A stretch of DNA of 64,000 nucleotides from Chloroflexi bacterium OLB13 (GTDB lineage: Bacteria; Chloroflexota; Anaerolineae; Aggregatilineales; Phototrophicaceae). The notes under the pieces are model-generated. The model was not told where the DNA came from. It did not search any database and was given only the letters and a program-made list of their open reading frames with translations. Where the stretch lies: positions 124,001-188,000 of the forward strand of contig JZRA01000092.1 of the NCBI GenBank assembly GCA_001567485.1, written 5' to 3'. This document shows, piece by piece, positions 12,951 to 25,347 of this stretch. A program made the translations under genes and the position numbers. Numbering within the stretch: the stretch's first letter is position 1; each line of letters starts with the position of its first letter.

Positions 12951-15008
12951 ATGGCGCAAGACGCCCTAATCGACAAGCAGTTCGGTGAATTCACCGTCAA
13001 AGAGGTCGTCGGGCGCGGGGGAATGGCTACAGTCTATCGTGCTGAACAACCGTTGATGCGCCGTGACGTTGCACTAAAGGTTATCCGACTCAACGATGTC
13101 GCTGACAAGAACCGTGACTTTTCCGCACGGTTCGCGTCCGAGGCCAAACTCATCGCGTCGCTCGAACACCCAAACATCCTCCCTGTCTACAGCTATGGAA
13201 TCACCGGCGAGTACGCGTATCTGGCGATGCGCTTTCTACGCGGTGGCACGCTCGAAGACCTGCTCAACGGCGAACCAATGCCCCTTGAGTACGCCATCCG
13301 GATGTTTCAGCAGTTCGCGCACGGACTTGCCTACGCGCACAGCAAAGGCATCATTCACCGCGATATCAAGCCTTCCAACATCCTGCTTGACGAGGAGGAC
13401 AACGCCTATCTGACCGACTTCGGCCTCGCCAAGCTGATCGACGCCGAGGCGGGCTTCACCAAGACCGGGCAGATCATGGGCACGCCGGTCTATATGTCGC
13501 CCGAACAGCTCAAGGGCGAGGCGCTCGACTTCCGTTCCGACGTGTACGCCCTCGGCTGCCTGCTCTACGAAATGCTCACCGGATCGCCGCCGTTCTCGTC
13601 GTCCGATGGGGACGTCATCCCGGTCATTTTCAAGCATCTGCAAACGCACCCTGAAGCCCCGTCCGAGCGCAACCCTTCCCTGCCGCCGGCTTTTGATGCG
13701 GTTGTCCTGCGCGCCCTCGCCAAAGCGCCAGCAGATCGCTATCCATCGGTGCGCGACATGGCGAACGACCTCAACAAGGCGATCGGCAAACATGCGACGT
13801 TGTCGTTTCCTCAGCCGGCCGAGACGATCATCAACCGCACGCAGCCTATCCAACTGCGGCAGGATCATGTGAGAACCGGGCTGATCGCGGCAATCGTCAC
13901 GCTCGTCGCAGCCGTGCTCGGCGTGACGCTGCTGCTGGTCAGGACGGAACAGGAGCGTCGGGACACCGTCGCCACGAACTTCGCGGCGGCCGTGACCGCA
14001 CAGCAGGCCATCGCGCTGGCCGAAACGCAAACCGCAATCGCATCCCACCCTCGCTATGACCCTGACCAAATTCGGCTGGGGGAGAGCGGTAACATCGAGG
14101 ATTACCTGCCAACCCAGGAAGAGATGGAGGTGGCGCGCTCCATCGTCGGCGCGAACGGGTTCATTGCGCTTGTTCCATGCAACACGTCGAGCGAATATCA
14201 TGCGGCGCTTACGCGTGAGCTGGCGCAGTTCGCGCGTGAGGCCGGGATCCCCACGCGCGTGTACGATCCGGACAGCGATGCGTACCAGCAGCTCACCCTG
14301 TTGGAACGCGCCATCGCCGATAACGCGACCGGAATCGTCCTCTGCCCGCTGGATTTGGAGCTGATCGCCCCGACGATGTGGGAAGTACGGCGCGCGCGCA
14401 TCCCGTTTGTTTCACAGGCGTCCAACATGGGACAGTACGGCGGCGTGCAAGTCCTGACCGACGCCGCACTGCTCGGCCAAGTCCCCGGTGAGTACATTGG
14501 GCAGCTGGTCGCGGATCAGTTCGATGGCGTGGCAAAGGTGGTCGTGCTGACGTTCGACGATCTGCCGGATGTTAAGGCACGTGCCGATGGCATGGTCGAT
14601 GGCTTGCTCAAGTACGCGCCAAACGCCGAAATTGTCGCCCGTGTGCGTGGCGCCACACCGGACTGGGCGCAAGAATCGATCGAAGCGCTGCTGGCCGACG
14701 GTGTGGAGTTCAACGTTATCCTCACCATTAACGATGCCGGAGGGTTTGGGGCCCTAGCAGCCTTAGAAGCGGCCGGGGTGCCTTACGACGACGTAGTAAT
14801 CGGCAGCGTCGACGCGGAAGTGTTGGCGCAGCGCTATATCCGAGAAGGCAAGTACTTCAAGGCGACGGTCGAGGCCGGGCGCACTGAATACGCCTCCGCG
14901 GCGGTATCGGTTATGATGAAAATGCTCGCGGGCGCGTCTGTCCCCGAATTCACCCTTATCCCACCGGGTGAGTTGATTACAGCCGACACACTCCAGTCCG
15001 AACCCTAG
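12951..15008 (+). CDS. Membrane Ser/Thr protein kinase with periplasmic-binding-protein sensor
   Basis: A 685-residue receptor-like kinase. Residues about 12-280 are a PknB-type catalytic domain: glycine loop GRGGMATVYR, catalytic lysine K43 (VALKVI), IIHRDIKPSN with D138, DFG at 156-158 and MGTPVYMSPEQ activation segment. All key residues are intact. One transmembrane helix lies at about 309-330. The extracellular part (about 385-680) resembles family-4 periplasmic sugar-binding proteins (FIALVPCNTSSEYHAAL near 403, then VVLTFDDLPDVKARADGMVDGLL), not the usual PASTA repeats. It therefore probably couples binding of a small solute to cytoplasmic phosphorylation. ppc begins 25 bases after its stop, so cotranscription is likely. 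Confidence 0.9.
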   Translation: MAQDALIDKQFGEFTVKEVVGRGGMATVYRAEQPLMRRDVALKVIRLNDVADKNRDFSARFASEAKLIASLEHPNILPVYSYGITGEYAYLAMRFLRGGTLEDLLNGEPMPLEYAIRMFQQFAHGLAYAHSKGIIHRDIKPSNILLDEEDNAYLTDFGLAKLIDAEAGFTKTGQIMGTPVYMSPEQLKGEALDFRSDVYALGCLLYEMLTGSPPFSSSDGDVIPVIFKHLQTHPEAPSERNPSLPPAFDAVVLRALAKAPADRYPSVRDMANDLNKAIGKHATLSFPQPAETIINRTQPIQLRQDHVRTGLIAAIVTLVAAVLGVTLLLVRTEQERRDTVATNFAAAVTAQQAIALAETQTAIASHPRYDPDQIRLGESGNIEDYLPTQEEMEVARSIVGANGFIALVPCNTSSEYHAALTRELAQFAREAGIPTRVYDPDSDAYQQLTLLERAIADNATGIVLCPLDLELIAPTMWEVRRARIPFVSQASNMGQYGGVQVLTDAALLGQVPGEYIGQLVADQFDGVAKVVVLTFDDLPDVKARADGMVDGLLKYAPNAEIVARVRGATPDWAQESIEALLADGVEFNVILTINDAGGFGALAALEAAGVPYDDVVIGSVDAEVLAQRYIREGKYFKATVEAGRTEYASAAVSVMMKMLAGASVPEFTLIPPGELITADTLQSEP

Positions 15009-15033: not shown

Positions 15034-17718
15034 ATGTTTCAACTTGATCCAAAACTCTTGGACGCCGTAGGTTCGCTCAGCGGAGACATTCGATACTTGG
15101 GTTCGCTGCTCGGCTTGGTCATCCGCGAACAGTACGGTCAGGAAGCGTTCGATCTCGTTGAAGAAACGCGGGCATCGGCCAAGGCGCGCCGTGCCGGGGA
15201 GGTCGCGGAGACGCCCCGTCTGCTTGAGCGCATGCGCCGGCTTCCGCTGGATTCCAAGCGCGTATTGATTAAGGCGTTCGCCAACTACTTTCAGCTCATC
15301 AATATCGCAGAGGATCATCAACGTGTACGTGTGCTGCGCGAACGCGAAGCAGCTGGCACGCTCAGCGAGACGATCGACTCCGCGCTTCTTGACCTAAAGC
15401 ACGCCGGCAGCGACGCGGCGACGGTCGAACGCCTTCTGCATGCCATACATGTGCGCTTGGTCTTTACGGCGCACCCTAGCGAAGCCAAACGGCAGGAAGT
15501 CCTGATCAAGCTCGCGGACATCAGCGAACTGCTGACGGGCCTCGAACGCCAGTCACTCCTGCCACGCGAGCAAGACCAGATCACAAGCGATATCCTGCGG
15601 CGGATCGAACAGCTCTGGCAGACCCGTCCCAACCGCGCGCAGCGAGCGACCGTCATGGACGAGGTCGAGTTCGGCCTGTTCTTCATCACGCGCTTCGTGA
15701 TGGACGTGACGGTCGACGTGCACCTCGACCTGCTCGACAGCCTGAACCGGCACTTTCCGCTTCACGATTGGTCGAATACCTCTCCGCTGATTCAGTTCGC
15801 CTCATGGATCGCTGGCGACCGCGACGGCAACCCGAACGTCACGCCGGACGTCACGCGTGAGGCGCTCAACGTCATGCGTGAACGGGCGCGCACGGTGTAT
15901 CGGGCCGAGGTCGAATATCTGCGGGATCGGCAGACTCAGTCCTTGGACGAAGCCCCGGTGTCGGAAGAACTGCTGCAGCGGCTCGGCGTCTCGAACCCGT
16001 TCGCTGGGCGATTTGCCGGCGAAGTATATCGCCAGTATCTCCAGCACATCAGCGACCGGCTGGCGACCGATCAGTATCGTCGTAGTGACGAACTGCTCGA
16101 TGACCTACAAGTCCTGTGGGACAGCCTCCATCACAATCGAGGCGTTCACGCCGCCGAGGGTTCGCTCAGGCGGCTGATGCTCAAGGTGCGCCTATTCGGG
16201 ATGCACCTTGCGCCGCTTGAAATCCGCGAAGACGGCCGCCTGCATACCGCCGCCTTGACCGAGGTCTTCAGCCGCTATCGAATGGCAGAGAACTACGCGG
16301 AAATGCCCGAACCGGAACGCGTGGCACTGCTAACGCGCGAGATCGAAAACGCGCGACCGCTGCTGCCCGTTCAGCCCACTTTCAGCGACGCGACGAACCG
16401 CATTATCGCCACATGGCGCATGATCGCGGACATCCACGCAACACACAGCCCGCGCGCGATCGACACGGTGATCGCCAGCATGTCGCAGTACGAAAGCGAC
16501 GTACTCGCCATGCTGCTGCTCGCGTGCGAGGTCGGCATCGCCGATCATGTCGACATTGTGCCGCTGTTTGAGACCGTGGAAGACTTGCAGCGGGCGAAAG
16601 AGGTCATGCAGAGTCTGTTCGATAACCCCGTCTATTCCCGGTACCTCGACAAACGCGGGCGCATTCAGCAGGTGATGATCGGGTATTCCGACAGCAACAA
16701 GGACGGCGGATACGTCGCGTCGAACTGGAACCTGTATCAGGCACAGCGCGAGCTTGCGGAGTTATGCGCACAGAATAACGTGACGCTGTGCCTATTCCAC
16801 GGGCGCGGCGGCAGCATCGGGCGCGGCGGTGGGCCGACCAATCGCGCCATCCTCGCACAGCCCCCCGGCTCGATGACCGGCCCGATCAAGATCACCGAAC
16901 AGGGCGAGGTTATCGCCTATCGCTATGGCAACCCCGACATCGCCTACCGCCATCTTCAGCAGGTCCTGAACGCGTCGATCCTCGCGCTGGGGGCGCCGCA
17001 GAACGGAATCGACCCGCGCTGGTTCACGGTGATGGATGCGCTGTCCGAACTGAGCCGCGCGCACTATCGCGCCTTCGTGTACGAGACGCCGTCGTTTCTG
17101 ACCTATTGGCACGAGGCGACACCGATTAACGAGCTTGCACAGCTTCCTATCGGCTCGCGGCCTGCGAAGCGCAGCAAAGGCGGCTTCGAGTCGATCCGCG
17201 CGATCCCGTGGGTGTTCAGCTGGATGCAGAGCCGTGCGATTATCCCGAGTTGGTACGGCGTCGGCCATGCTTGCAAGGCGTACTGCGCCGGCACGCCCGA
17301 TGGTGAGCTGACGTTGCAGACGATGTACGAGCGCTGGCCGTTCTTCAAGGCGCTGATCGACAACGTTCAGCTTGACGTGGTGAAGGCCGATATGGGCATC
17401 GCCCGGTTGTACAGCGGCCTCGTGAGCGACGCGAAGCTGCGTGACACCATCTTCAGCAAGATCGAGAGCGAGCACGCGCAAACATGTGACTGGATTTGCC
17501 GTATCACCGGCCAAACGAGCGTGCTCGAAAAGACGCCGTTGATGCAGCGTTCGATCGACCGGCGTAACCCGTATGTCGATCCGCTCAACTTCATTCAAGT
17601 CGCACTGCTGGCCGACCTGCGCATGATGCACCCGGATTTGCCCGCCTATGACGATACGCTGCAAGCCGTCCTCGCGACTGTGAACGGCATCGCGGCGGGG
17701 ATGAAGACGACCGGATGA
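15034..17718 (+). CDS. ppc: Phosphoenolpyruvate carboxylase
   Basis: An 894-residue enzyme of normal length for bacterial PEPC, which makes oxaloacetate from PEP and bicarbonate to refill the citric acid cycle. Signature segments are present: VFTAHPSEAKRQ with catalytic His about 147 (most enzymes read HPTE; here Thr is Ser), VMIGYSDSNKDGGY, FHGRGGSIGRGGGPTNRA and GSRPAKR followed by ESIRAIPWVFSWMQ. The C-terminus ends KTTG, close to the usual NTG. It follows the receptor kinase gene by 25 bases, and its stop overlaps the start of the next membrane-protein gene (ATGA). Confidence 0.96.
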   Translation: MFQLDPKLLDAVGSLSGDIRYLGSLLGLVIREQYGQEAFDLVEETRASAKARRAGEVAETPRLLERMRRLPLDSKRVLIKAFANYFQLINIAEDHQRVRVLREREAAGTLSETIDSALLDLKHAGSDAATVERLLHAIHVRLVFTAHPSEAKRQEVLIKLADISELLTGLERQSLLPREQDQITSDILRRIEQLWQTRPNRAQRATVMDEVEFGLFFITRFVMDVTVDVHLDLLDSLNRHFPLHDWSNTSPLIQFASWIAGDRDGNPNVTPDVTREALNVMRERARTVYRAEVEYLRDRQTQSLDEAPVSEELLQRLGVSNPFAGRFAGEVYRQYLQHISDRLATDQYRRSDELLDDLQVLWDSLHHNRGVHAAEGSLRRLMLKVRLFGMHLAPLEIREDGRLHTAALTEVFSRYRMAENYAEMPEPERVALLTREIENARPLLPVQPTFSDATNRIIATWRMIADIHATHSPRAIDTVIASMSQYESDVLAMLLLACEVGIADHVDIVPLFETVEDLQRAKEVMQSLFDNPVYSRYLDKRGRIQQVMIGYSDSNKDGGYVASNWNLYQAQRELAELCAQNNVTLCLFHGRGGSIGRGGGPTNRAILAQPPGSMTGPIKITEQGEVIAYRYGNPDIAYRHLQQVLNASILALGAPQNGIDPRWFTVMDALSELSRAHYRAFVYETPSFLTYWHEATPINELAQLPIGSRPAKRSKGGFESIRAIPWVFSWMQSRAIIPSWYGVGHACKAYCAGTPDGELTLQTMYERWPFFKALIDNVQLDVVKADMGIARLYSGLVSDAKLRDTIFSKIESEHAQTCDWICRITGQTSVLEKTPLMQRSIDRRNPYVDPLNFIQVALLADLRMMHPDLPAYDDTLQAVLATVNGIAAGMKTTG

Positions 17719-18707
17719 TCCCGGCAGGGTTAACGCCGCAGCTAGCTCGGCATTGGCCGCGCCTCCTGCTCGCGGTTCTTTGGGCCATTGGATCAGAGGT
17801 GCTCCTGTGGTCTTATCCGCCTGATCGTACAATCATGGATTGGATACTGAACCTTGCCGGCTACGGCGTGCTGGCATACGCCCTCACCGACCTTGCCGTC
17901 CGCTGGCGGATGCGCGATCTGTACGGTGTCGCGCCGCTTGGTGGGCTTGCCGCCCTCCTCTATGCGCTGTTCGTCAATCCACAGTTCACGCTTGTTGACA
18001 TCCCGCGTACGCTCGTTACCCGTGCGATGGGCAGCCACGCACTGCTGTTCATGGGTATGCTGCTGCTGTGGCTGGTCATGCTGCGCGCAGTACCTTTGCT
18101 GCATCTGCTCATCCCACTGGCGGCGCTGATCGGCGCATGCTGGGGCACATGGGTGCGATACGCTCCGATCCTGACCGACCTCCCCGGCCCGACGCTCACG
18201 GATCCAACGCTGTTCATTCTGATCGGCCTCGTCATCGTCGCCTTGATCGGGGTGGTCGGCCTGATCGGAGCACGAATGCTGCCGGTGCGGGGCGAGTCGC
18301 TGCTCATGCAGCCCACCGAGGCTGTGGTCGTGGGCTTCGCCGCTGTCGCGCTTATCTATCGCCAGCTCGACCTCGGCGCAATCGACCTCGAGTCACGGGG
18401 GTTGGTCGTCGGATTGATCGGGCTGTGCCTTGCGATGCTGTGGTTTCGTAAGGATACAACCTACGGCTATCTAGCTGGAGAGGTTCGCGTCAATCCGCCG
18501 TGGACAACGTGGTGCGCGGGCATGATGGCGTTTCTGATCGCTGCAAGCGCAGCGTTCTCCGCGCCGATCATCGGTGACGACTCGTTCAATCAGGTGGCTG
18601 CGGTCGTGGCGCTGTTCACATTGTTCGGCGCAACATGGCTCCCCGGCGTCTCCGTGATTCTTGGGCTGCGTGCGGTACTTAGAGAAGTATCGTCAACGCC
18701 GCTGTAG
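17715..18707 (+). CDS. Polytopic membrane protein, unknown function
   Basis: A 330-residue very hydrophobic protein with roughly nine or ten predicted membrane segments. Examples are LLLAVLWAIGSEVLLW near the N-terminus, LLFMGMLLLWLVMLRAV near 110 and a final helix near 300. I recognise no family. It overlaps the ppc stop by 4 bases, so it is translationally coupled to ppc and belongs to the kinase-ppc operon. No binding or catalytic motif is visible. A transport or signalling role would be a guess. Confidence 0.75.
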   Translation: MIPAGLTPQLARHWPRLLLAVLWAIGSEVLLWSYPPDRTIMDWILNLAGYGVLAYALTDLAVRWRMRDLYGVAPLGGLAALLYALFVNPQFTLVDIPRTLVTRAMGSHALLFMGMLLLWLVMLRAVPLLHLLIPLAALIGACWGTWVRYAPILTDLPGPTLTDPTLFILIGLVIVALIGVVGLIGARMLPVRGESLLMQPTEAVVVGFAAVALIYRQLDLGAIDLESRGLVVGLIGLCLAMLWFRKDTTYGYLAGEVRVNPPWTTWCAGMMAFLIAASAAFSAPIIGDDSFNQVAAVVALFTLFGATWLPGVSVILGLRAVLREVSSTPL

Positions 18708-18814: not shown

Positions 18815-20218
18815 TTAGACGACACTGCTGAACGGCTCGACACGTACATGAGCGCCGAGCCGTCCGTCGAGCATCACGCGAACCTCGCCCCCGTCCGTAA
18901 ACCATCCCGGCGGCCCGCCAACACGTACCGGCTGGCGCAGATCATGCGCAGGCAGTTCGATCAGCCGGTCATCGCCGCCTGAACGCTGCACATGAATTTC
19001 GATATGGTGCGGGTCGTCCCACTCGCCCGGCCAGAACGTGATGAGGACGCCGTCGGCAGTGGGCAGCACGCGATCCACATACGCGCTTCGGCGGAAGAAC
19101 AGCGCGAAGTCCCCCCGCGCAATGATGTGCTGACGCCACTGTTCACGGGTGTTGTCCGTCAATTGATTCTTGAGAGTCTCCGCCTCGGCGTCGCTGCGGC
19201 ACCAGATCAGCTGGAGCGACTCCAGCGTCAAGGGAGATGGCACGAGAACCTGCGCGCGCCGACTGCGCAGCACTTCGTCTTTCTCCGCCGGTTTCGGCGC
19301 TTCGTCGTGATAGATCAACTCAAACGGCAGTTCGGCCAGTGCGCCAGATGTCGCGGATGACCGCTTCACAACCTGCGGGTCGCCAGATGTGAAGCGGGCC
19401 GCAGGCAGGCAAATCGTCGATTCGAGATCGAACAGCAGGCATACCGGCACAGGCAAGCGGTCAGGACTCGGCGTGCCGGGCAGCACCCCTTCGCGGAACC
19501 ACATGTCCGGCGTGCGCGGGCGGAAATTCAGGCCCAACAGCTGATCCTGCGAACGGCGTGATCCCCCCGAACGGGCAGCGGTCAACTTGCCTTGGTTGAG
19601 CACGTTCGCCACAGCCTCGATATCAAGATAGTGAAACAGGAAATACGTCCACCATGACCGGCCACCCAACCACGGTTCGCGCCGGAGTTCGGCAAGGGCA
19701 CGTCTGAACGCAGGCGCATCGCGCTTTTCCGGTACAGACAGCCGCCGCAGTCGTGATGGGCGGAACACAGAGCGCCCCGTCTCCGGCTCGCCATCTCCAC
19801 CCAGCGACGCGAACGCACGCCCGACGTTCAGGTCGCTCAACAAGTCGCGCAGCCGTTCGGCATACTGTGATGGCTGCGAGAAATCGAGCCGGTTAAGGTG
19901 TTCAAGGTGCAGCGGTATCTCTGCGTCGGCCTGCACCAACAGCGGAATGATGCGCTTACCCTTTCGCTGCAATCGCATCTGCTCGGCGCGGCAGTACGTC
20001 GACTGGTACGACTTGTGGCTGCACAACGCCAACCCGACGTCGCAGCTTTCAATCACGCGCTCGATAGTGCGTGCCCAGTTGTCCCCTCCTTGAATATCGG
20101 CGACATCCATCCACGCCGTCAGGCCAGCCGCACGGAGATCGTCACGCAGGCGCAGCGCGAGGGATTTGGCGTCATCACGGGCGTACGAGATGAAGATGCG
20201 GGCGCCGGCCTCGATCAT
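18815..20218 (-). CDS. TIR domain fused to a DarT-like (DUF4433) domain
   Basis: A 467-residue protein with three parts. Residues 1-about 130 are a TIR domain: RIFISYARDD at 7-16, AWMDVADIQGGDNW and CSHKSYQSTYCRAEQ, where E79 sits at the position of the catalytic glutamate of NAD-cleaving TIR domains. Residues about 185-350 resemble DarT, the ssDNA thymidine ADP-ribosyltransferase: LFHYLDIEAVANVLNQGKL, then NFRPRTPDMW at 231-240, FTSGDP at 276-281 and RRAQVLVPSPL at 320-330. In DarT the last motif normally carries the catalytic Glu (AE.LV); here it is Gln323. The loop between the first two motifs is much shorter than in DarT. The last 100 residues are beta-rich and unrecognised. It overlaps the macro-domain gene by 4 bases (ATGA). 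TIR is firm; DarT-like is a moderate call. Confidence 0.78.
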   Translation of the reverse strand: MIEAGARIFISYARDDAKSLALRLRDDLRAAGLTAWMDVADIQGGDNWARTIERVIESCDVGLALCSHKSYQSTYCRAEQMRLQRKGKRIIPLLVQADAEIPLHLEHLNRLDFSQPSQYAERLRDLLSDLNVGRAFASLGGDGEPETGRSVFRPSRLRRLSVPEKRDAPAFRRALAELRREPWLGGRSWWTYFLFHYLDIEAVANVLNQGKLTAARSGGSRRSQDQLLGLNFRPRTPDMWFREGVLPGTPSPDRLPVPVCLLFDLESTICLPAARFTSGDPQVVKRSSATSGALAELPFELIYHDEAPKPAEKDEVLRSRRAQVLVPSPLTLESLQLIWCRSDAEAETLKNQLTDNTREQWRQHIIARGDFALFFRRSAYVDRVLPTADGVLITFWPGEWDDPHHIEIHVQRSGGDDRLIELPAHDLRQPVRVGGPPGWFTDGGEVRVMLDGRLGAHVRVEPFSSVV

Positions 20219-21111
20219 GGCGCGACCTCCACCGTAAGCACCGCCGCGCCTTTGGGTGCGGGCGGAGTGAACAGCAGCGCATCCGATTCCGTACGGCCGT
20301 TCATCGTGCCGCGCACCGTCGACAAATAGCTCAACTGAGTAAGTAAGGGGAACAGGTATGGCGCGGCCGGCTCCATGCCGCCGGTCAGCTGATGCGCGAA
20401 CACGACCCGCGCATGGATCACCTGTGTCCAGAAGTCGTTCAGCACAGCGGACGAAAACGCGAAGGCCGGCCCGCGCTCTGGCGTCAAGACGAGCCGACGC
20501 AGCCTCGCACCCGTCTCTATCGCGGCGCGAAAGGACTCCTCGCTCGCGGTGGTGAACTTGCCGTAGACCGCACGAACCGCGCGGCCAAGATCACGCCAGA
20601 ACTGCTCAAACGGCGGCCGGGAGTACGCATGAGTCACGCGCTGTTCGATCTGCCGGACTCCGCGCCGTTTGTCCGCCGGCTCGCTGTGATGAACGTACAC
20701 CGGGATCGGCAGCGGGTCGAGATAGGTATCGAGCAGCGGGCGCACAACCCCGTCCCAATTCAGCTCCGCGCCGGCGAAACGCGGCAGCGCAAGCGATGGG
20801 ATGGCGAGATCGGGCCAGCGGTCGGCCAGCTTCTGCAGCCCTGCTTCGAGCATATCCGCGGCAGCGGCAGACCGCCAATGCCGCCGAATCGGGAGTGCGA
20901 CGATATCGACGCCGTCCCCACGCAGGTACAACAGCGCTCCCGGCTTCAAGTCACCGACCTCGCACGCCAGTCGATACTGCGCCAACGCGGAAGGAAAAAA
21001 ACGTTTGAAGTCGGCGGCCACCTCGGTGCTGGCCGCGCCTGCCGTGCTGACAGGCATGATCCAGACATCGGCCGGGCTTAAGAACAGGTCAGCATGCAGG
21101 TCAACGAGCAT
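20215..21111 (-). CDS. Divergent macro-domain protein, DarG-like partner
   Basis: A roughly 298-residue protein. Its first 140 residues follow the macro-domain order of DarG antitoxins: DLHADLFLSPADV, a VSTAGAASTEVAADFKRFFP segment, CEVGDLKPG, then LPIRRHWR (about 73-80) where DarG has a PTKxHWR motif, and finally LPRFAGAELNWDGV in place of LGCGLGGLDW. The overall register is convincing, but several ADP-ribose-binding residues are changed, including the catalytic Lys to Arg. The remainder is unrecognised. I choose ATG 21111, which has AGGGG six bases upstream, over GTG 21117, which touches it. It precedes the TIR/DarT-like gene, the usual antitoxin-first order. Confidence 0.7.
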   Translation of the reverse strand: MLVDLHADLFLSPADVWIMPVSTAGAASTEVAADFKRFFPSALAQYRLACEVGDLKPGALLYLRGDGVDIVALPIRRHWRSAAAADMLEAGLQKLADRWPDLAIPSLALPRFAGAELNWDGVVRPLLDTYLDPLPIPVYVHHSEPADKRRGVRQIEQRVTHAYSRPPFEQFWRDLGRAVRAVYGKFTTASEESFRAAIETGARLRRLVLTPERGPAFAFSSAVLNDFWTQVIHARVVFAHQLTGGMEPAAPYLFPLLTQLSYLSTVRGTMNGRTESDALLFTPPAPKGAAVLTVEVAP

Positions 21112-21129
21112 CGTCACCCCCTGCTGAGT

Positions 21130-21158
21130 ATCTTAAAGGAGGTTGCGTCCGGATACAA
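21130..21158 (-). promoter_or_regulatory. Promoter of the macro / TIR-DarT-like gene pair
   Basis: TTGTAT (21158-21153), a 17-base spacer and TAAGAT (21135-21130) lie directly between the upstream gene's terminator and the macro-domain gene. The leader would be only about a dozen bases. This suggests the two-gene unit is transcribed on its own. Confidence 0.45.
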
Positions 21159-21161
21159 CAA

Positions 21162-21195
21162 ATAAGGGCAGGAACCATGCGGCTCTTGCCCTTAT
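21162..21195 (-). terminator. Intrinsic terminator upstream of the macro / TIR unit
   Basis: A perfect 9-base inverted repeat (ATAAGGGCA / TGCCCTTAT), extendable to 12 pairs with one G-U, is followed on the minus strand by TTGTTGT. It ends the gene at 21223-22383 and insulates the macro / TIR unit. Confidence 0.65.
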
Positions 21196-21222
21196 CGTTG
21201 GCGGCTAATGGTTGGCTGAGGC

Positions 21223-22383
21223 TTAACCGGCGGCTTCGGCCGAATCTTCATCTGCCGGCGGGAAACCGAGGCCGGTCGTGAGGTTGAACATACGCGCGAC
21301 CTGCGCCGCATCCGTCACCGCCGCGACAGTCGGCTCGGTCGTCAGCAGATCGACATCGTAGTTGTGTACGCGCACCGTAGCGACGCGCAGGGTATCCCCG
21401 GCGTCGTTGAGCAGCACAGCGACGGCGCTTTGCGGTTCACCTTCAAGCGTGCGATACGCGTAGGAGACAGCAAAACCACTGCCCCCGTTGCGCTCGACCG
21501 CCTCGACCGTGCGAATCTCCGCATCCGGACGCATCGCTGCGACGAATTCGCGCGCGGCATCCTCATCGGCGATCACCGTGCCTGCGACACTTTCAAGATG
21601 CAGCACGCCCTGCCCCGAGCCTTCGATCGTGACCGGCTCACCGGGGCCGCCATCACGCAGCACCCAGTTGTTCGGGTAGCGAACCACCATGTTGTCTTGC
21701 GCGCTGTAATAGCCGTTCCACTGAACCGGCGTGCCCTCATACAGCGCAACCGGCGTGATCGAAGCCTCGGCCTTTGCCAGCAGGTCGAGGAGCAGCGCAC
21801 GCGCGTTGCTCGGCGTGACCACACGCGTAACATAGATCTTGCCATCACCGGTCAGTTTGGCGACGTGACGCGCGAGATAGGTCTGTGAGCGCAGCATCAG
21901 TTCAAAGTCGATCACCACCGCGTTCTGTTCGGTGTCGAGCGTCCGATCAACTTCCTTCCAACTGTTGTAACGGCTCCATCCACGCTGGAGCGTGTTTTCG
22001 TCGTAGCGTGCGCTCAAGTCCTGCAAGTTAGCAGGCGGCTCGGCCGGGAACTCAATATACGTCTCGATGATGCTGAGGGCCGTGTTGTTCTCGAAGTTGA
22101 CCTGAACCTGTGTCCCGTTGTTCGACGGGCGCGTCGGCTCCCATCCATCCGGATAGTTCACCATATACAGGGCGGACGGGTGCAGATACACGTTGTCGAA
22201 CGTAATGGCCGACAAATCCGCTGGCGGAGGCGGAACGGTCGGCTGGGGGGTAGCCGTCGGTTGAATGGCCTGCTGAGAGGCAGTCTGCGGGGCAAGCGCC
22301 GGCAGAATCGCGGTCAGCCCCATCAGGCCCGCCATAACGATCGCAAAAATAGCGTATGTGCGCTGTCTGCGCCGAGTATCCAT
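21223..22383 (-). CDS. Membrane-anchored extracellular protein, two similar domains
   Basis: A 386-residue protein with a single N-terminal hydrophobic anchor (about 10-31), a short Thr/Pro linker (PTATPQPTVPPPP), then two domains with similar openings: YMVNYPDGWEPTRPS near 73 and MVVRYPNNWVLRDGG near 238. The repeated V-Y-P-x-x-W pattern resembles PsbP/DUF1795-like domains found on cell surfaces. No enzyme motif is visible. It is followed by an intrinsic terminator and diverges from a lipoprotein gene. The function is unknown. Confidence 0.75.
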   Translation of the reverse strand: MDTRRRQRTYAIFAIVMAGLMGLTAILPALAPQTASQQAIQPTATPQPTVPPPPADLSAITFDNVYLHPSALYMVNYPDGWEPTRPSNNGTQVQVNFENNTALSIIETYIEFPAEPPANLQDLSARYDENTLQRGWSRYNSWKEVDRTLDTEQNAVVIDFELMLRSQTYLARHVAKLTGDGKIYVTRVVTPSNARALLLDLLAKAEASITPVALYEGTPVQWNGYYSAQDNMVVRYPNNWVLRDGGPGEPVTIEGSGQGVLHLESVAGTVIADEDAAREFVAAMRPDAEIRTVEAVERNGGSGFAVSYAYRTLEGEPQSAVAVLLNDAGDTLRVATVRVHNYDVDLLTTEPTVAAVTDAAQVARMFNLTTGLGFPPADEDSAEAAG

Positions 22384-23278: not shown

Positions 23279-25347
23279 GTGAGACTCCGCTGGTTGCTCG
23301 TGGCCTGTCTCGTAGTGCTCGCCGCTATGGCGATGCTGCTGCCGCTCAGCGCCCAAACTCCACCACCGATCACCCCGCTGCCGCAGTCAAGTATCCTGTT
23401 GGTGCAGGACGCTTTCGTGCGCGGCGGCCCGGGCGAGTCCCATATCCCCGTCGGGCAAGTCGTCCCCAGCTCCATATTGATCCCCGTGAGCCGTAATGCA
23501 GACGCGACATGGGTACTGCTGCGTTACAACCGTGGCTTTGGCTGGATTCGCCGCGATCTTGTGCTGTGGGCGGTCGACGTGGACGCGCTGCCGGTCATTG
23601 GCCCGAACCTGACACCGACGATCGAACCGGGGCCGCCAACGGCTACTCTGTTCTTCCCGACCAACACGCCGGAAGGCGATTACGTCCACGTTTCAGCGGT
23701 AAGCGCCTATTTGCGCGCAGGCCCGGGCATCACCTATCTGCGCTTGAGCCAAAAATTTCCCGGCGAGTCGCTTGAGCCAGTGGGCCGCAACGAGGAGTCG
23801 TCGTGGATCATGATCCGCAGTGACGACGGTTTCGCATGGATCCGCGCCGACCTCGCCTATTGGACGACCGACCTCGAGTCGCTGCCCGTTTTGAACGAAA
23901 ACCGTTTGACCCCAACGCTGACTTTCACGCCGTCGAACACGGCGACAGCGACCGATACCCCCACCGATACGCCAACCGCAACGCCGACGTTCACGCCCTC
24001 GGACACCGCGACGGCCACGGCGACACCCACCGACACCCCGACGGATACCCCCACGCCGACCGCCACCGACACGGCTACGGTAACACCGACCGATACCGAC
24101 ACAGCCACAGCGACCTCGACGGCGACCGCTACCGCGACCGACTCGCCGTCTGCCACCCATACGGCGACATCCACCGCGACGGATACACCCACGGACATCC
24201 CGTCGGCAACGGCGACGCCAACCGATACGGCGACTTCAACGCCCGATCAAACCCTCACGGCGGCAGCCTCTATCAGTCGGCGCTGCTGCAAACCGTCTCT
24301 GCGATGCCCACGCTGACGGCGACGCCATCCGCCACGGACACCGCCGCTCCGACCGCTACTGACACCGCTTCATCCACACAAACCTCGACGGCCGAACCGA
24401 CGGCCACGGCGACGCCACCGCCCACCGAGACTGCTGCGCCGACGCAAACGTCGACGGCCGAACCGACGGCGACTGCAAGCGCGACGCCCACCGAACAAGC
24501 GTCATCGACTCCGGCCGAGTTGGCGAGCGAGACGCCGCTTCTAACCACGACCACGGACGTCACACGGACGGCTGAACATGCGCTCTCGGTGGGCGAGACC
24601 CAAACGTCTGCTGCGGCCGCTGTCCTGCCCACGGCATCCGATACGCTTGTCCTATCGAAAACACCGACCGAGCCGCCGCCAACGGCAACCGCGACTCCGT
24701 CCGACGTCCCGCCTTCGCCTACGGTCACTGTGACGGGGCCGCCGGCGGAAACCGACACGCCAACGAATCCTCCATCCACAGCAACCGGCGTGACAACAGA
24801 GAGTGCCACGACGCCAGCGCCATCGGACACCCCGGCCCTGACCGAAATCGCCGCAGTCATCACCGTGACGCCGCAGCCTCCGCGCCCGACCGCCGCGCCG
24901 ACCCCGGCGCCGCCTGCCTCTACCGACTCGGGCGGCGTCCGGCCCGAACTGGTGTTGGCGGGTCTGGGCCTGCTGCTCATTGTCGGCTATTTGTGGCTGT
25001 ACTTGCGGGGGGCGGCTACCGCTCATCGCTATGCCGCGGGTTTCGTCATCGACTCGTGTCCGGTGTGCAAGTCAGGACATCTGCACGTCGAAGCGCGCGT
25101 CGAACGTTCGGTGGGCATTCCCAACACGAAACACGTCGTCCGCTGCGATAACTGCCGTTCCGTGTTACGCGAGGTCGGGCGCGACCGCTGGCGTTATGCG
25201 ATAGATCGCGCCGTCAACCCGCGCATGTACGACCGCCTCAACAACCGCGAGCTGCACGAGGCGACGATCAGGCGCTTGGCCGAGCACAGCCCTGATGATA
25301 TGCCCCCCGGCAGCGAGCCGCCGCGAATCGAGGATGACCCCGGATGA
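23279..25347 (+). CDS. Surface protein: SH3-like repeats, Thr/Pro stalk, membrane helix, zinc ribbon (apparent frameshift)
   Basis: The 5' frame (GTG 23279, AGGA seven bases upstream) gives a signal peptide, two bacterial SH3-like domains ([15 protein letters not shown] and [15 protein letters not shown], each ending GWIRRDL or AWIRADL) and a Thr/Pro/Ala/Asp stalk, then a stop at 24316. From about 24290 the stalk continues in another frame ([17 protein letters not shown]) to 25347. That part carries a transmembrane helix ([19 protein letters not shown]) and a cytoplasmic CPVC...CDNC zinc-ribbon-like domain. Adding one base near 24280-24290 yields one 689-residue protein. Alternatively these are two genes, the second starting at ATG 24304, but that would split the stalk from its anchor. 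It probably anchors in the envelope with the SH3 domains outside. Confidence 0.75.
23920..24540 (+). repeat. Thr-Pro/Ala/Asp-rich low-complexity coding repeat
   Basis: About 600 bases of imperfect six-base-like units (ACN-CCN, GCN-ACN, GAY-ACN) encode a TPT/TDT/ATA stalk. Such linkers are frequent on Chloroflexota surface proteins. The repeats also create long meaningless Val/Gly frames on the opposite strand, and they are a natural place for slippage or consensus errors. Confidence 0.8.

Follow-up and report, generated by a model that had tools for sequence, protein, structure and literature searches.

The genes described here lie within a 64,000-nucleotide stretch of contig JZRA01000092.1 from Chloroflexi bacterium OLB13, which we call the window and to whose positions all coordinates refer. 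Two open reading frames on the minus strand overlap by an ATGA stop/start (20215–20218), with a macro-domain gene identified by its DarG matches (20215–21117) coming first and a gene for a 467-residue TIR/pseudo-DarT fusion (18815–20218) following it, in agreement with the gene order given in an earlier sequence-only reading of this DNA. The macro protein would be 300 residues long from the GTG at 21117; its start is probably the in-frame ATG at 21111, which gives 298 residues, because the alignment of homologues begins there and not at the GTG.

Upstream of the pair is a gene for a 386-residue protein without a Pfam family (21223–22383, minus strand), which is a single-copy core gene found in 95 of 98 genomes of the family. 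A terminator-like hairpin follows that gene, ahead of the macro gene (about 21156–21200, minus strand; MFE −28.3 kcal/mol, z −3.1), is matched in stability by 1 of 200 shuffles, and fits the insulating terminator of the earlier reading. The separate promoter proposed for the pair was not confirmed, as a sigma-70 consensus scan of the gap upstream of the macro gene returned no site. On the other side lie a gene for a predicted 330-residue membrane protein (17715–18707, plus strand) and, outward of it, a PEP carboxylase-like gene (15034–17718), and the pair has these same two neighbours in L044/G001 and L045/G004. Elsewhere in the window, positions 12951–15008 hold a Ser/Thr protein kinase gene joined to a periplasmic-binding-protein domain (PF00069 + PF13407), and positions 23279–25347 hold a long Thr/Pro/Ala-rich low-complexity coding sequence open in two overlapping plus-strand frames (23279–24316 and 23836–25347), as would be expected of a frameshift or of an artefact driven by repeats.

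From N- to C-terminus, the fusion protein consists of a TIR domain, a DarT-fold domain, and a C-terminal beta domain. The TIR domain (residues 6–130; 19829–20203, minus strand) matches the Pfam family TIR_2 (PF13676) over residues 7–125 (E = 2.8e-26, 92.8 bits against a cut-off of 28). Glu79 (codon 19982–19984, minus strand) occupies the TIR catalytic position, where a Glu is invariant among 17 aligned fusions and present in all fusions, so that the TIR and its catalytic-position E79 stand as first read. AlphaFold models of the two proteins were built from homologue alignments (pLDDT 83.9 and 85.2), and the closest solved structures to the modelled TIR are those of the SPARTA TIRs (Z up to 18.7, 25–27% identity). 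By its TIR fold, its score above the family cut-off, and its conserved catalytic Glu, the window fusion is predicted to be a TIR NADase.

The DarT-fold domain (residues 164–375; 19094–19729, minus strand) is matched by the Pfam family PF14487 over residues 284–363 (E = 4.8e-4), with 20.4 bits falling just below the cut-off of 22.5; sister fusions score far above that cut-off (for example L007, 1.5e-13). The model of residues 174–375 aligns with Thermus DarT (7omw) at Z 16.1 and 3.1 Å over 179 residues, which supplies the structural match that the sequence-only reading had asked for in support of a DarT-like middle domain. The C-terminal beta domain (residues 376–462; 18833–19093, minus strand), with model strands spanning residues 379–460, is common to the fusions and to TIR-free DarT relatives, whose profile match extends through it. 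Compared with L002, the fusion gene as a whole has a dN/dS of 0.32.

Seventeen further full-length homologues of the fusion, 37–55% identical to the window's, were found, giving a family of 18: 17 from a search for relatives (the window's included) and one, G091, from Pfam DarT and profile searches. All are confined to one Anaerolineae family, which includes Anaerolineae and Phototrophicales metagenome-assembled genomes, and occur in 18 of its 98 genomes. In a 400-genome sample of the phylum, searched with the fusion profile (A1), by which only 4 candidates per genome were scored, and for that reason again with the TIR-free profile (A3), the fusion appeared in that family only (2 genomes of the sample). 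DarT relatives without a TIR, about 330–340 residues long, occur both within this family and in other Chloroflexota, and also on plasmids of Agrobacterium and Rhizobium and on viral contigs. The plasmid search returned no fusion, only these TIR-free relatives with their macro partners and one TIR-only match, and the viral contig search likewise returned TIR-free copies only. Most of the Glu-intact TIR-free relatives on viral contigs (L131–L137) and plasmids (L062, L063) have an intact macro partner, and on the viral contigs L131–L133 the macro gene lies on the opposite strand. A tree built from the DarT half, with 31 rows and without the catalytic column, places the 18 fusions on one side of a single branch with support of 95/100, which bears out a conserved fusion family; because they form one clade, a single origin of the fusion is the simplest reading.

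Comparison of the fusions with their TIR-free relatives indicates what the DarT half has lost. DarT numbering follows an alignment with the crystal sequence of Thermus DarT, an E160A construct that reads A at position 160, and with a canonical DarT–DarG fusion protein (L064). The positions of Thermus H13, N19, Y71, and E160 read H-N-Y-E in 13 of 13 aligned TIR-free relatives and in 0 of 18 fusions; the window fusion reads H-A-N-Q (H197, A203, N231, and Q323, the last encoded at 19250–19252, minus strand). At the Glu160 column, 16 fusions have Q and 2 have V, and the Glu is kept in every TIR-free relative examined, including L124, L125, and the viral contigs. E160A abolishes the toxicity of Taq DarT (PMC5179494), and DarT requires both R51 and E160 (PMC9967889). 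Beyond the Glu, most NAD-contact residues are also gone from the fusions: H13 and N19 are mostly lost, the Tyr at Y71 is kept in 11, and the loop of the R51 region is 16–20 residues long compared to 32–35 in the TIR-free relatives. No residue of the TIR-free relatives corresponds clearly to R51 itself either. The Arg of an RPRTP motif had been a candidate for R51 and was rejected, as alignment to the crystal sequence puts it at R75.

Some PARP-type mono-ARTs are active without the Glu, so its loss alone is no proof that all transferase activity has gone, and the DarT part of the fusion may retain a residual or different activity. The window fusion falls in the DarT class by its fold and outside it by its missing catalytic Glu, and the earlier proposal of two NAD-consuming chemistries in one effector finds no support, given the loss of that Glu and of most NAD-contact residues in 18 of 18 fusions. 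Across the fusions, mean pairwise identity is 58% in the TIR part, which is the most conserved, and 49% in the DarT part, whose dN/dS is 0.05–0.33 in the pairs compared, with dS saturated in several. Judged by these values and the predicted structure, the DarT fold is under selection despite its lost active site, and since the fold is conserved without that site, the fusions seem to have kept their DarT half as a pseudo-enzyme.

The macro partner has a DarG-type fold and has itself been eroded. Its N-terminal macro domain (residues 1–150; 20668–21117, minus strand) is followed by a C-terminal domain (20218–20667, minus strand) that lies outside the NCBIfam DarG match and is retained in the partners of TIR-free copies. 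The window protein matches PADLOC DarG at 1.3e-19 and NCBIfam DarG at 2.6e-17 over residues 9–156 only, and the profile of the partner family matches Taq DarG at 2.2e-38. The model of residues 1–145 aligns with Taq DarG (5m31) at Z 20.4 and 1.6 Å over 144 residues, so the DarG-like macro fold passes its structural check as well. The curated DarG cut-off (NF048014, 250 bits) is missed both by the window protein (63 bits) and by the partners of TIR-free copies (174–187 bits). Where Taq DarG has N22, K29, K80, and G119, the window protein has S, T, R, and a gap; it thus combines a DarG-type fold beside a DarT gene with the loss of K80, N22, and the ADP-ribose loops. The MGKG loop is lost from the macro partner of every fusion, and both this loop and K80 are kept in the full-length partners of TIR-free copies. 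K80 is replaced by R in three fusion partners (the window's, L006, and L029, the last encoded away from its fusion); most fusion partners keep K80 and N22, so hydrolysis by macro partners outside the window may persist. In Taq DarG, N22A, K29E, G119E, and K80A markedly reduce activity; K80A still inhibits DarT, by binding, and inhibition by full-length DarG is independent of K80 (PMC5179494).

Pairing of the two genes is strong in one direction. All 24 family genomes with a full-length macro partner also carry a DarT-family gene (98 genomes, Fisher p = 2.6e-18), although in one of the 24 (G007) the macro gene is accompanied by no more than a TIR fragment at a contig edge. In the other direction, a full-length partner is present anywhere in the genome for 13 of 18 fusions, so the constant pairing that the sequence-only reading had set as a check failed. 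The partner lies apart from the fusion in G008, G015, and G032, and no full-length partner of the fusion type is found in G005, G009, G012, G019, and G030, of which the last three are 74–88% complete; the fusions of these five genomes fall in two subclades. The macro partner is therefore not an obligate antitoxin, and its loss or relocation in some genomes fits a regulator better, as a strict antitoxin could not go missing or change place this readily. Together with the missing hydrolysis residues of the window protein, this weakens the suggestion that the fusion stands under one antitoxin-like partner.

The macro gene is anchored to the 386-residue core gene, its constant neighbour in many genera. 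The core gene lies directly before the macro gene, in the same direction, in G000, G002, G007, G011, G015, G016, G021, G023, G025, G027, G029, and G032, and about 1 kb from it in G091. In G015 and G032 the macro gene occupies this site and the fusion gene lies on another contig; in G023 the pair at the same site is TIR-free and has its Glu intact, which points to capture of the TIR at this very site. The arrangement further suggests that the locus is vertically inherited, unlike typical mobile defence genes.

Set against known systems, the pair is closest in form to DarTG, with which it shares the DarT fold, the DarG-type macro fold, and adjacent, translationally overlapping genes, and the TIR-free relatives of the fusion have complete sets of DarT and DarG motifs. 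It differs in a toxin half that has lost its catalytic residues and gained a TIR, in a macro half that is eroded and gone altogether in five genomes, and in falling short of the curated DarT and DarG cut-offs. Like SPARTA TIR-APAZ proteins, the fusion joins a TIR to a nucleic-acid-handling part; it has a DarT fold in place of APAZ and a macro partner in place of Argonaute, and no Argonaute was found among the neighbours, which are the macro gene, the 386-residue core gene, and the membrane protein gene. The earlier statement that no system of this architecture has been described agrees with the literature searched, in which no description of a TIR with DarT/DUF4433 was found, most subscription papers and bioRxiv lying outside its scope.

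We consider it fairly likely that a clade inside one Anaerolineae family descends from an ancestor in which a DarTG-type pair was converted, probably once, into a TIR effector system, the old toxin appearing to have turned into a regulator of the new effector. The TIR would be the only NAD-consuming part and would kill or signal by cleaving NAD on assembly. The dead DarT, whose fold binds nucleic acid in active relatives, would serve as a recognition or gating domain; a candidate ligand, and our first guess, is the ssDNA of an invading replicon, and phage anti-DarT proteins such as AdfB are the other candidate trigger. The macro protein would be a co-translated regulator acting by binding instead of hydrolysis, since DarT can be inhibited by full-length DarG without the help of K80. 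We infer that the arrangement with which the sequence-only reading closed, in which the DarT-like part senses and the TIR part kills, is the best-supported option. Against it stands the absence of the macro partner from five fusions, by which the partner is not essential to the mechanism everywhere.

Thoeris systems with a macro-domain ThsA likewise pair a TIR protein with a macro-domain protein, and the co-occurrence of fusion and macro gene, even from separate loci, would suit a system in which the TIR makes an ADP-ribose-type molecule that the macro protein reads or removes. We think this unlikely, as the macro partner predates the TIR, given that it also pairs with TIR-free DarT, and the TIR here is fused to a DarT fold. 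The window macro protein is moreover of DarG type with no apparent transmembrane part (maximum 19-residue hydropathy of 1.16 in a simple hydropathy scan), the ADP-ribose-binding loops are eroded in the fusion partners, most of all in the window's, and five fusions lack a partner. It is quite unlikely that the toxin–antitoxin pair became, at one fixed site, an immune receptor in which the inactivated toxin is a decoy for phage anti-toxin proteins or an ssDNA sensor and the captured TIR kills. A narrower version, in which the dead DarT is an integrated bait for phage anti-DarT factors whose binding triggers the TIR, draws on the existence of such factors, AdfB binding DarT directly (PMC11481870), and on a DarT fold conserved without its active site; a fixed chromosomal position is unusual for an arms-race gene, and we regard the bait as decidedly improbable. 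That same fixed position, next to core genes across many genera, and the strongly conserved TIR would befit a SARM1-like metabolic switch, a housekeeping stress response distinct from phage defence in which the pocket of the dead ART, on binding NAD or a related nucleotide, would gate the TIR, but with the NAD contacts H13 and N19 mostly lost and the fusion present in only 18 of 98 family genomes, this is very unlikely. Least credible is a system with both domains active, in which the TIR cleaves NAD, the DarT ADP-ribosylates DNA, and a macro antitoxin reverses the modification: the two folds, the ATGA-overlapping operon, and the K80 and N22 that most sister partners retain speak for it, and against it are a catalytic Glu present in no fusion, the general loss of H13 and N19, the shortened R51-region loop, five fusions missing a full-length partner, and a window macro protein without catalytic residues.

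Under the preferred conversion of a DarTG-type pair into a TIR effector system, the locus would record an apparently clean change of toxin role, in which fold and partner stay the same and the loss of catalysis coincides with the arrival of a different effector that also uses NAD. In at least one case, active-looking and dead DarT forms occupy the same locus in different genomes, and such matched pairs are available to ask whether toxin–antitoxin modules seed immune receptors. The family is also a warning against reading DarT and DarG fold matches as DNA ADP-ribosylation. The window's own genome carries, in addition, a second, canonical-looking DarT gene whose frame is cut short (L071, G000:C97:7846-8154; 168 residues), and a partial DarG-like macro frame overlaps it, possibly as part of a broken DarTG.
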